Shown here one piece after another: positions 15,064 through 24,256 of a stretch of 31,469 nucleotides of DNA (position 1 is its first letter; each line of letters begins with the position of its first letter). The notes under the pieces were generated by a model. The model did not search any database, was not told the origin of the DNA, and worked only from the letters and a program-made list of their open reading frames with translations. The DNA is taken from IMG/VR virus record IMGVR_UViG_3300032050_000533, positions 1 to 31,469 of that record; one strand, written 5' to 3'. The position numbers were made by a program, and so were the translations under genes. The DNA is from a virus.

Positions 15064-15140
15064 GTTAGTATATAGTTTAAATGTGGTTTAGTGTATAAGG
15101 TAATCTTAATCTACTCCCGAACAAGGTTATGAGGGAAGTT

Positions 15141-15190
15141 GGTCAGAACAGAAGTTGCCCCCTACCCCCAATAGGAAACAACTACTGACC
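15141..15190 (-). other. G-rich two-part stem-loop
   Basis: On the minus strand GGTCAG pairs with CTGACC (outer stem, 15185-15190 with 15141-15146) and AGTTG with CAACT (inner stem, 15179-15183 with 15153-15157). The loop contains GGGGGTAGGGGG (15158-15169), an unusual run in this AT-rich genome. No T-tract follows, so it is not a simple terminator. Confidence 0.5.
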
Positions 15191-15384
15191 ATCTACTCCG
15201 TCACATAGGTAATCGGGTTAGTCGGCTGAAAAGGGAAAAAGTTACATCCTTCTTTTCATTTAACAGATTTAAACTCCTTGAATTCAGAACTTTGAGAGGT
15301 AGGCGACTACTTGCAAAAAAATTTGCTGTCTTTCCAGCTGTCACCAACTTTTTCTTTCAATGTTTCGGGGTTGGCACCTTCAGT

Positions 15385-15504
15385 AGTCAGGACAGGATTC
15401 GAACCTGTATGAAGAGTATGTGTGTCTCTTCTCCTATGGGTTTACCTCAAGGGTTTCCACCTGCCATCGCACGTTGTAGCATCTACCAATTCCGCCACCT
15501 GACT
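15385..15504 (-). tRNA. atypical tRNA-Leu-like gene, anticodon arm unresolved
   Basis: On the minus strand the ends are a clean class-II tRNA. A 7-bp acceptor stem (AGTCAGG / CCTGACT) is followed by TG, a D arm of the leucine type (GCG GAATTGGTAGA TGC) and a perfect T arm (ACAGG TTCGAAT CCTGT). A 6-bp variable-arm stem (GAAGAG / CTCTTC) precedes the T arm. The total is 120 nt, about 30 more than normal. The 45 nt between D arm and variable arm contain no standard 5-7-5 anticodon hairpin. The stretch TTGAGGT resembles a Leu(GAG) anticodon loop, but its flanks (AACCC and AAACC) do not pair. No CCA is encoded. It may be a degenerate tRNA, a tRNA with a short insertion, or a tRNA mimic. Confidence 0.6.
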
Positions 15505-15526: not shown

Positions 15527-15561
15527 AAAAAAAGAACCCACACTGGTAGAGCAGTATGGGT
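15527..15561 (-). terminator. intrinsic terminator with a possible alternative 5' arm
   Basis: On the minus strand ACCCATACTG pairs with CAGTGTGGGT (10 bp, one G-U) around CTCTAC and is followed by TC and seven T. A second upstream arm, GAACCCAC (15571-15578), is also complementary to the 3' arm extended by TC (GTGGGTTC, 15534-15541), so two folds compete. It lies 23 nt before the tRNA-like element. Confidence 0.8.
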
Positions 15562-15676
15562 CTAATCGTAGTGGGTTCACTAAAATCAAACCCGAAACAT
15601 ACTCTACTATCTTTCGGATTGACAAAGCAAAAATACTAAATATTTTAGAATACTAACTTTTTTAGCAGATTATTTT

Positions 15677-22804: not shown

Positions 22805-23562
22805 TTATCTTTTAAAATTTTATCAAAGTAGCAAGATACCGCCATTCTCATACACTGATGCTCCATGTAGTCATCATCTTTTAACTTGTTCTTGATGTCT
22901 ATCTTGTCTTGTCTGCTACCTTGAAACATTCTGTCATTCATTGCCTTGATTACCTTGTCATAGGTGTCTTCAACCTCTACAATGATTTTACCTCTTTTGT
23001 GCAGGATATGGAAGACATCAATACCGAACACTATGTTATCCCATTGCTTAAACTTAGAGTAGCAATCAAAAGCAGTTTCTATCTTTTCATCATCAGATAT
23101 GTACCTTGGTTGCCATTTAGATTCCTGCACTGGTTTAATCTCATTTAACTTCTGCATACCATACCTTGCGAATGACCTGAGTAATCTATGCAGATACAAT
23201 ACTGAAAAGTTCTGATAGGTTTCTGCTTCCATATCTAACTTCCCTTTACTTGCTAAATCAAAAGCAAGGGATAACTCACCGAACTTGATATTAGGGTATT
23301 CCTCAACGATTGACTTATACATAACAGATAGTTCCTCTTTGTTGGGTATCTTATCTCCCTTAATGCCAAGTTTATGCATTCCCCTTATAAGTTCATCAAC
23401 CACAAGAGCAATGCTTACAGTGTTTAACTTTTCCGATGACCTTGCAAGTTTAAATCGTTCCAAGTCCAGTTGCTCTGAGTCTGTCAATCTCGGAGAAGTA
23501 GTCATGGATTTCGTTTCGTTTCTCATTATAGATGTCAAAGTTTGACTTAGTGCTTGTTCCAT
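22801..23562 (-). CDS. replication-operon protein, unknown (loader-like position)
   Basis: 253 aa, ATG at 23562; its first ~38 codons overlap the end of the upstream gene in another frame (113 nt). Helical, with 'RFKLARSSEKLNTVSIALVV', 'LSVMYKSIVEEYPNIKFGEL' then 'SLAFDLASKGKL', 'ETYQNFSVLYLHRLLRSFAR' and a charged C-terminal half. The middle phrase of the type 'K-F-G-E-L-x-L-A-F-D-x-A-x-x-G-K' recurs in phage proteins next to replisome organisers. It may be a helicase-loader or primosome partner, judged by position only. No Walker motif is present, which argues against a DnaC-type ATPase. Confidence 0.65.
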   Translation of the reverse strand: MEQALSQTLTSIMRNETKSMTTSPRLTDSEQLDLERFKLARSSEKLNTVSIALVVDELIRGMHKLGIKGDKIPNKEELSVMYKSIVEEYPNIKFGELSLAFDLASKGKLDMEAETYQNFSVLYLHRLLRSFARYGMQKLNEIKPVQESKWQPRYISDDEKIETAFDCYSKFKQWDNIVFGIDVFHILHKRGKIIVEVEDTYDKVIKAMNDRMFQGSRQDKIDIKNKLKDDDYMEHQCMRMAVSCYFDKILKDK

Positions 23563-24142
23563 TTTTGGTATAATTTTTAGAGTTTTTAATCCAGTTTCTT
23601 GATGCTGCTTTCCAATCTTTCATAGGGTTCTTTCCTACCTTCCAACCATTGCTCTCATAGTAGTTAAAAAATCCCTCTGCTTCATTTAGGTTTCCAAGTT
23701 CTTCAAAATAGTTCTGTACTTCAAATAACTCAGGTTTTAAAAATCCTTTACCTTTTTGTATTTTATTTTTATTTATAACTTCATTTACATTTTCATTTTC
23801 ATTTTCCATATGTTTATCATATGATTCACATATGTTAGTCATGTGTTTAGATTCTATACCTTTTATCTTGTTATTCCTTCTTGATTCTGAGTATCTCTTA
23901 CGCTTTTCTGCTTCTTCATGCATTCTCTTATTTAAGAATCCTGCATCAGTTTTCTCAAACTTGCACCATATATCTTCATCATATGTTCCACATATGTGCA
24001 ACATATCTTTCTCAGTTAATGAACCATATTGATGCTGCATACAAAGAAGAGTAATGTATTTACCTACTTGCTCATAGGTCATTCTGCGTACTCCAGTCAA
24101 AAAATCAGAAGTATAAAAAAGCACTGCAGGGTCTTTTGCCAT
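23450..24142 (-). CDS. replisome organiser / DnaD-like replication initiation protein
   Basis: 230 aa from the ATG at 24142 (MAKDPAVLFYTSDFLTGVRR); the frame is open upstream but only through the terminator hairpin. The N-terminal ~90 aa (DFLTGVRRMTYEQVGKYITL, LCMQHQYGSLTEKDMLHIC) is a winged-helix domain of the DUF1376/replisome-organiser type. A charged, low-complexity Asn/Glu/Lys linker (MENENENVNEVINKNKIQKG) follows. The C-terminal domain has 'FFNYYESNGWKVGKNPMKDW' and 'KAASRNWIKN', a motif of DnaD/DnaT-like primosome proteins. It probably binds the origin and recruits helicase. The start codon lies 5 nt after a terminator T-tract, see 24147-24256. Confidence 0.8.
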   Translation of the reverse strand: MAKDPAVLFYTSDFLTGVRRMTYEQVGKYITLLCMQHQYGSLTEKDMLHICGTYDEDIWCKFEKTDAGFLNKRMHEEAEKRKRYSESRRNNKIKGIESKHMTNICESYDKHMENENENVNEVINKNKIQKGKGFLKPELFEVQNYFEELGNLNEAEGFFNYYESNGWKVGKNPMKDWKAASRNWIKNSKNYTKNGTSTKSNFDIYNEKRNEIHDYFSEIDRLRATGLGTI

Positions 24143-24146
24143 AAAT

Positions 24147-24188
24147 AAAAAAAGGGGATTCAGGTGTAGTGTGTTTACCCGATTCCCC
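24147..24188 (-). terminator. leader terminator/attenuator just before the replication gene
   Basis: On the minus strand GGGGAATCGGG pairs with CCTGAATCCCC (10 of 11 positions, one A-A mismatch, one G-U) around the 13-nt loop TAAACACACTACA, followed by seven T. The replication-gene ATG is 5 nt further. The loop contains CACACTAC, complementary to the loop of the hairpin at 24209-24240. Confidence 0.85.
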
Positions 24189-24208
24189 ATTTATGTCTGT
24201 ACTTACAA

Positions 24209-24240
24209 ACAAGCATCTGCACACTACCTCAAATGCTTGT
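24209..24240 (-). ncRNA. leader hairpin 1 with loop complementary to the terminator loop
   Basis: On the minus strand ACAAGCATTTG and CAGATGCTTGT form an 11-bp stem (one G-U) around AGGTAGTGTG. The loop octamer GTAGTGTG is perfectly complementary to CACACTAC in the terminator loop 20-odd nt downstream, allowing a kissing interaction. A -7 box lies just upstream (24249-24256), so the hairpin is expected to form near the 5' end of the transcript. Confidence 0.75.
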
Positions 24241-24248
24241 CTACTTTG

Positions 24249-24256
24249 CAAAGATA
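24249..24256 (-). promoter_or_regulatory. promoter -7 element TATCTTTG of the replication operon
   Basis: TATCTTTG on the minus strand matches TAnnTTTG and is identical to the cores at 16042 and 28242. It lies 5 nt after the stop of the 82-aa gene. A TTG at the proper -33 distance was not found (GGTTA is there), so the promoter may be weak or activator-dependent. Confidence 0.6.

Follow-up and report, generated by a model that had tools for sequence, protein, structure and literature searches.

The locus considered here raises the question of whether two hairpins in the leader of a phage replication gene pair with each other through their loops and, if they do, what this pairing might control. 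The leader, designated KL1, lies on the minus strand of the window, i.e., the whole stretch of 31,469 nucleotides of virus record IMGVR_UViG_3300032050_000533 that was analyzed. Its elements follow in the order TATCTTTG, P1, P3, T7, ATG:

24256-24140, minus strand: KL1 leader
24249..24256, minus strand: TATCTTTG, a Bacteroidota-type -7 box (TAnnTTTG) read from the sequence; a TAnnTT(T/C)G-like box is present in nearly all relatives
about 24209..24240, minus strand: P1, the 5' hairpin, supported by sequence, folding, and compensatory changes in the stem
24220..24227, minus strand: L1, the kissing word GTAGTGTG in the P1 loop, which covaries with L3
about 24195..24210, minus strand: P2, a possible short spacer hairpin (GTTTGTA/TACAGAC) that overlaps the end of P1 and is an alternative to it
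24154..24188, minus strand: P3, a terminator-like hairpin, supported by sequence, folding, and covariation
24166..24173, minus strand: L3, the kissing word CACACTAC in the P3 loop, directly adjoining the P3 3' arm
24147..24153, minus strand: T7 tract read from the sequence; a T-rich tract is present in nearly all relatives
24142-24140, minus strand: ATG of the putative initiator gene
23450..24142, minus strand: putative replication initiator (replisome-organizer) gene of 230 amino acids (MAKDPAVLFY...), the first gene after KL1

An earlier note on this DNA had reported two hairpins with loops perfectly complementary over 8 nt, which direct reading and folding confirmed. Its coordinates were correct to within one or two bases, and the ATG, which it had placed 5 nt beyond the T tract, lies 4 nt past it. 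The spacer hairpin P2, a second element in the window (KL2), and the numerous relatives had been overlooked. Folding of KL1 recovered both hairpins at -32.4 kcal/mol, compared with -20.3 +/- 3.3 kcal/mol in shuffled sequences (z = -3.7), and none of 200 shuffles folded equally well. P3 is rich in G+C and runs straight into a T tract, as expected of a putative intrinsic terminator. Counterparts of P2 were found in relatives L012 (GTTTGAA/TTCAAAC) and L108 (GCTTG/CAAGC). The 8-nt word occurs at a single site in the whole window, and a window scan found no third copy that might act as a trans RNA. By arithmetic, a perfect 8-nt match between two loops of about 11 nt would arise by chance with a probability of about 3e-4; a chance match is removed as an explanation because the loop words covary perfectly in relatives.

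The 230-amino-acid protein has DUF4373-type relatives in tblastn searches and is inferred to be a replication initiator because its homologues carry annotations for replication initiation. Pfam gave no match for it or its neighbors except the 56-amino-acid HTH protein. Its plasmid relatives were mostly from Piscirickettsia and Enterococcus, with no named Bacteroidota among the matches listed, and the terminase of the window had no near named relative. The initiators of the window and of L083, L087, L095, and L198 have exchanged N-terminal parts and similar C-terminal tails (DIYNEKRNEIHDYF, DIYAERRAELRQY), an exchange that resembles modular replisome organizers.

Relatives of the leader were gathered by scans with the initiator and with the 82-amino-acid upstream gene, not by loop complementarity. 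More than 60 leaders were found at the equivalent place, and they split into two sequence-unrelated classes, A and B, with 17 unique sequences each. Together with 15 KL2 sequences, this gave 49 unique sequences, all 49 of which had perfectly complementary loops in a scripted check. The window-like class A carries the words GTAGTGTG, GTAGTATG, GTAGTGAG, GTAGAGTG, and GTAGTGC, every one of them joined by an exact complement (for example, the natural pair GTAGTATG/CATACTAC). Class B carries GGGGAAC, GGGAAAC, and GTGGAAC, and its complement sits in a 3' bulge of a terminator-like stem of about 19 bp, followed by T8-ATG. Phages with initiators more than 90% identical may have either leader class, and the same leader was found upstream of different initiator genes. 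In L112, L135, and L136, the first gene after the leader reads as T5orf172/GIY-YIG-like and replaces the initiator.

In an alignment of nine class A sequences, the kissing helix was paired in 100% of cells. Five of the 11 pairs of the P1 stem had changed on both sides with 99% of cells paired, and the P3 stem also covaried. The earlier note had proposed such an alignment across related phages as a check on whether the hairpins kiss and had named a change in one loop alone as the refuting case. Double changes in the loop words were found repeatedly, and a lone loop change was found in none of the 49 homology-collected sequences.

The second element was detected by an architecture scan of the window, and it also lies on the minus strand:

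15635-15527, minus strand: KL2
15628..15635, minus strand: TATTTTTG, a promoter-like box read from the sequence
15589..15620, minus strand: P1 hairpin with the L1 word GTAGAG at 15607-15602, from the architecture scan and relatives
15535..15562, minus strand: P3 terminator-like hairpin with the L3 word CTCTAC at 15551-15546, supported by covariation in relatives
15527..15533, minus strand: T7 tract, followed by the TAnnTTTG-like box TAACTTTG

KL2 was matched by blastn in 14 other phage records. The words of this family (GTAGAG, GATGCAA, GTTGCGG, ATTGCAG, GTAGAAG, TTCGCAG, GTCTCAG, and ATTACGG) always have the exact complement. In an alignment of the nine sequences whose words are 7 nt long, each of the seven kissing pairs had changed on both sides with 100% of cells paired, and 92.9% of cells were paired across the whole structure, compared with 30 to 43% in slid controls. 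No coding gene stands behind KL2; variable noncoding cassettes lie downstream instead, and a new TAnnTT(T/C)G box comes after the T tract in about 9 of 15 relatives. The conserved cassettes are about 300 nt long (about 15064-15384, minus strand, in the window and also in L497 to L510), belong to at least three unrelated types swapped between close phages, and have no Rfam match. Behind KL2 in the window (15384-15504, minus strand) is a tRNA-like gene of 121 nt with an unusually long middle (RF00005, 31.5 bits against a gathering threshold of 29), which was not called by ARAGORN and was not seen immediately after KL2 in the relatives looked at.

The words change fast. Thirty distinct words were found in 94 tabulated elements, none without its complement; a word matches its own complement over 6 to 8 nt, whereas mismatched words mostly share runs of 1 to 3. 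Words differed in 23 of 35 phage pairs with 90 to 97% identical downstream DNA, and at 80 to 85% flank identity the share was about the same (60%). Word identity is thus decoupled from flank relatedness. The word is the most variable part of KL2, at 0.36 per site compared with 0.12 to 0.19 in the rest of the element. The turnover pattern is consistent with rapid cassette exchange and word switching. Diversifying selection on the words is suggested but unproven, since the KL2 word distance does not exceed that of four-fold coding sites (0.42). A special orthogonality between the two words of one phage was considered and rejected, as they were estimated in 13 phages to differ no more than random pool pairs.

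Other phage contigs, in which the leader stands upstream of an MNTGQIVK-type initiator, repeat this plan with different sequences and make up classes C to G plus singletons. In each of them, P1 follows a TAnnTTTG-like box, the complement directly adjoins the 3' arm of a terminator-like stem, and a T-rich tract comes next, usually with an ATG within about 15 nt. Because part of the search for these later classes relied on a detector that accepts only complementary loops, their numbers cannot serve as an unbiased test. L444 and L483 escaped this detector and were complementary when read by eye. The 25 class C leaders showed covariation like that of KL2 and class A, including the P1 and P3 stems. 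In class G, contigs L460 and L462 are 97.0% identical over 5786 bases, and their leaders differ only at three word positions and the three partner positions (TGCGACC/GGTCGCA versus TCTCACC/GGTGAGA), which is suggestive of selection on the words in the sense discussed above. A second element was present in two class C phages, with a separate word in each (CTGGCACC/GGTGCCAG and CTGGTAC/GTACCAG) and a backbone of its own, the same in both, found by the architecture scan at L536:15414 (plus strand) and at scan coordinate 12705 of L540 (minus strand); no clear coding gene was seen beside either in the strand looked at. Around 1290-1387 of L276, the same architecture (GAGCGAG/CTCGCTC) precedes what reads as a DNA-methyltransferase-like gene and then an initiator-like gene.

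A candidate element was also found in a cultured phage, Flavobacterium phage 11b (NC_006356; L496:33621-33737), upstream of gene 62, where the record has no annotation. It has the words CGGGCAGG/CCTGCCCG, a TATATTTG box, P1, a terminator stem, and the ATG, and no comparable match occurred in 20 random genomes of equal size. Phage 11b probably carries a member of the family. Reversed sequence gave 14 detector matches compared with 42 in the real sequence, indicating that single weak matches are not to be trusted, and about half of the matches of one pattern scan were kissless and proved to be unrelated sequence. No convincing element was seen in Vibrio, Porphyromonas, Bacteroides, and fecal phage loci with related initiators or in the cultured phages 6H, C72C1, P12024S, P12002S, and phi18:1. 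The promoter boxes of the family are of the Bacteroidota type. Two scans of bacterial genome contigs gave no relatives, so no copy in a host genome or prophage was found.

These observations are best explained if KL1 and KL2 belong to a family of phage RNAs of about 90 to 140 nt, each with its own Bacteroidota-type promoter. In the family plan, a promoter-like box precedes P1, sometimes a small P2, an intrinsic-terminator-like P3, and a T tract; the word lies in the P1 loop, and its complement lies in the P3 loop or in a bulge just 5' of the 3' arm. This architecture is conserved across the sequence-unrelated classes A to G and others, before different replication-initiator genes. The two loops are complementary over 6 to 8 nt and are kept so by compensatory change. 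The covariation of the loops, the lack of any lone loop change, and the decoupling of words from relatedness strongly support an intramolecular kissing complex, which on this comparative evidence we regard as nearly certain (probability of about 0.95).

What the kiss does is less clear; control of termination and readthrough, by attenuation or antitermination, is the preferred reading of its main role and is given about an even chance (about 0.5). A Bacteroidota-type promoter and a T tract before the initiator ATG are compatible with an attenuator, whose terminating role is predicted. P1 would already be folded when the complement emerges from RNA polymerase. Because this happens just before the terminator 3' arm emerges, the kiss of 6 to 8 bp would form before or during the zipping of P3 and may determine what share of polymerases stop at the T tract. 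The kiss might either favor or oppose termination, and elongation speed, a factor, or a competing copy of the RNA might alter it. In KL1, the kiss would gate transcription into the replication operon. With only about 4 to 15 nt between the T tract and the ATG in KL1-type leaders, the initiator would be read by readthrough from the promoter of KL1 or one upstream. For KL2, the outcome would be either the end of a short, self-contained RNA or gated entry into the noncoding cassette behind it; since KL2 has no downstream gene and often a fresh box, its RNA may be a stand-alone product. The fast word turnover plausibly reflects the risk that RNAs sharing a word within a cell would cross-pair in trans. 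Also counted against termination control are the weak T tracts of some members (L107, TTTTACAATTATATG; L503 and L509, TTTTCTTTT) and the lack of a classical antiterminator alternative common to all classes. The kiss could instead serve RNA stability or protein binding.

The main rival, because KL2 looks self-contained, is a stand-alone RNA of about 100 nt acting in trans, whose words would determine its pairing partners (sister copies, co-infecting phages, or satellites) and hence a class of incompatibility or superinfection immunity, comparable to plasmid copy control. In its favor, each element has a promoter box and a putative terminator of its own, and KL2 is succeeded by another promoter-like box. 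The rapid word turnover, independent of flank relatedness, and the L460 and L462 leaders, which differ in the word pair alone, also speak for it. However, with word and complement in each RNA, intramolecular pairing should win, and the two words of one phage are no more different than a random draw; diversifying selection is unproven, and cassette recombination could explain much of the turnover. We therefore consider action in trans doubtful, and it is only tentatively that the words may be viewed as specificity tags for such a class, kept diverse by selection against shared words. After it we rank antitermination of the put type, start-codon control, and DNA operators, in this order. Nascent RNA that modifies RNA polymerase to pass its own and later terminators, as in phage HK022, would account for the presence in many phages of two elements, each just past a promoter and made mainly of two stem-loops, like putL and putR (PMC9378689). 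But put has no kissing word and is itself no terminator, and the classes have no sequence in common, unlike what would be expected for a contact with polymerase, which makes this reading unlikely.

The earlier note had suggested that kissing could alter termination or block the start codon, and the kissing itself was upheld. In KL1 leaders of the various classes, only about 10 to 15 nt separate the base of P3 from the ATG, so kissed hairpins might block or expose the initiator start codon; but KL2 and the second class C elements keep the architecture with no initiator open reading frame nearby. Start-codon blocking is not the function that the elements have in common, since no open reading frame follows KL2, and translational control appears quite improbable. 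The note's other suggestion, two inverted copies of a protein operator, can be considered together with a DNA structure at a replication origin. The words do form an inverted repeat in duplex DNA, and KL1 adjoins a replication gene. Against this, the words are confined to hairpin loops, covariation extends to the P1 and P3 stems, and the words, P2, and the spacing vary freely, with no fixed binding sequence independent of folding; the T tract and promoter box are kept, and KL2 lies far from the initiator. KL2 words also diverge within conserved DNA, so that the specificity of a repressor would need to change repeatedly. A protein operator is unlikely on these grounds, and of operators and origin structures together we expect very little.

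The elements form a structured RNA class in diverse phage contigs with Bacteroidota-type promoters, with unusually clean comparative support for an intramolecular kiss inside a putative terminator, and offer a testable route by which a phage could set transcription into its replication genes by means of RNA only. Since the words are interchangeable, they amount to double mutants made by nature and might be usable as orthogonal parts; why phages are driven to replace them so fast is a question that follows. Were they specificity tags, they would give phage replication an identity system coded purely in RNA.

At the gathering threshold, Rfam 15 had no family for the window, the class C to F loci, or the KL2 region except the tRNA family RF00005, and permissive thresholds gave weak look-alikes only, plus the tRNA match. 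Class C leaders weakly resemble the attenuators trpB (RF04312; 36.1 bits against a gathering threshold of 59) and Trp_leader (RF00513; 24.1 against 41), models that do not include kissing. The earlier note knew of no described phage leader of this form, and a limited search of open-access papers likewise turned up no account of a phage terminator with an intramolecular kiss. Attenuation controlled by kissing in trans is already known, as in icsA/RnaG of Shigella (PMC5394118); the intramolecular form with hypervariable words appears to be new. The put RNA of phage HK022, which is located just after an early promoter, has two stem-loops and occurs in two copies per phage (PMC9378689). The phages studied here show a similar arrangement, with two stem-loops near transcription starts taken from the promoter boxes and two elements per genome, while some have a single one. 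Unlike KL elements, put has no T tract within the element, and its protein-free action on polymerase is known, whereas for KL it is hypothetical.

Riboswitches of the purine type are also cis-acting leaders in which two hairpin loops kiss within one molecule, but KL has no closing three-way junction and no conserved ligand core, and its loops are hypervariable. ColE1 RNAI and RNAII kiss through fully paired loops of 6 to 8 nt that vary between types; that kiss is intermolecular, between sense and antisense RNAs, whereas the KL kiss is intramolecular. The rep leaders of plasmids of the pT181 and pIP501 type are, like icsA/RnaG, antisense-controlled attenuators, in which a leader RNA has an intrinsic terminator before the gene, an arrangement that KL1 resembles. 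In these attenuators, loop kissing decides between termination and readthrough, and the partner is a separate antisense RNA from the opposite strand. A search of the opposite strand for one box type (TAnnTTTG-like; CAAANNTA-like, -60..+200) found it in 8 of 64 leaders. In KL, unlike in the antisense-controlled systems, the word and its complement lie within one RNA.
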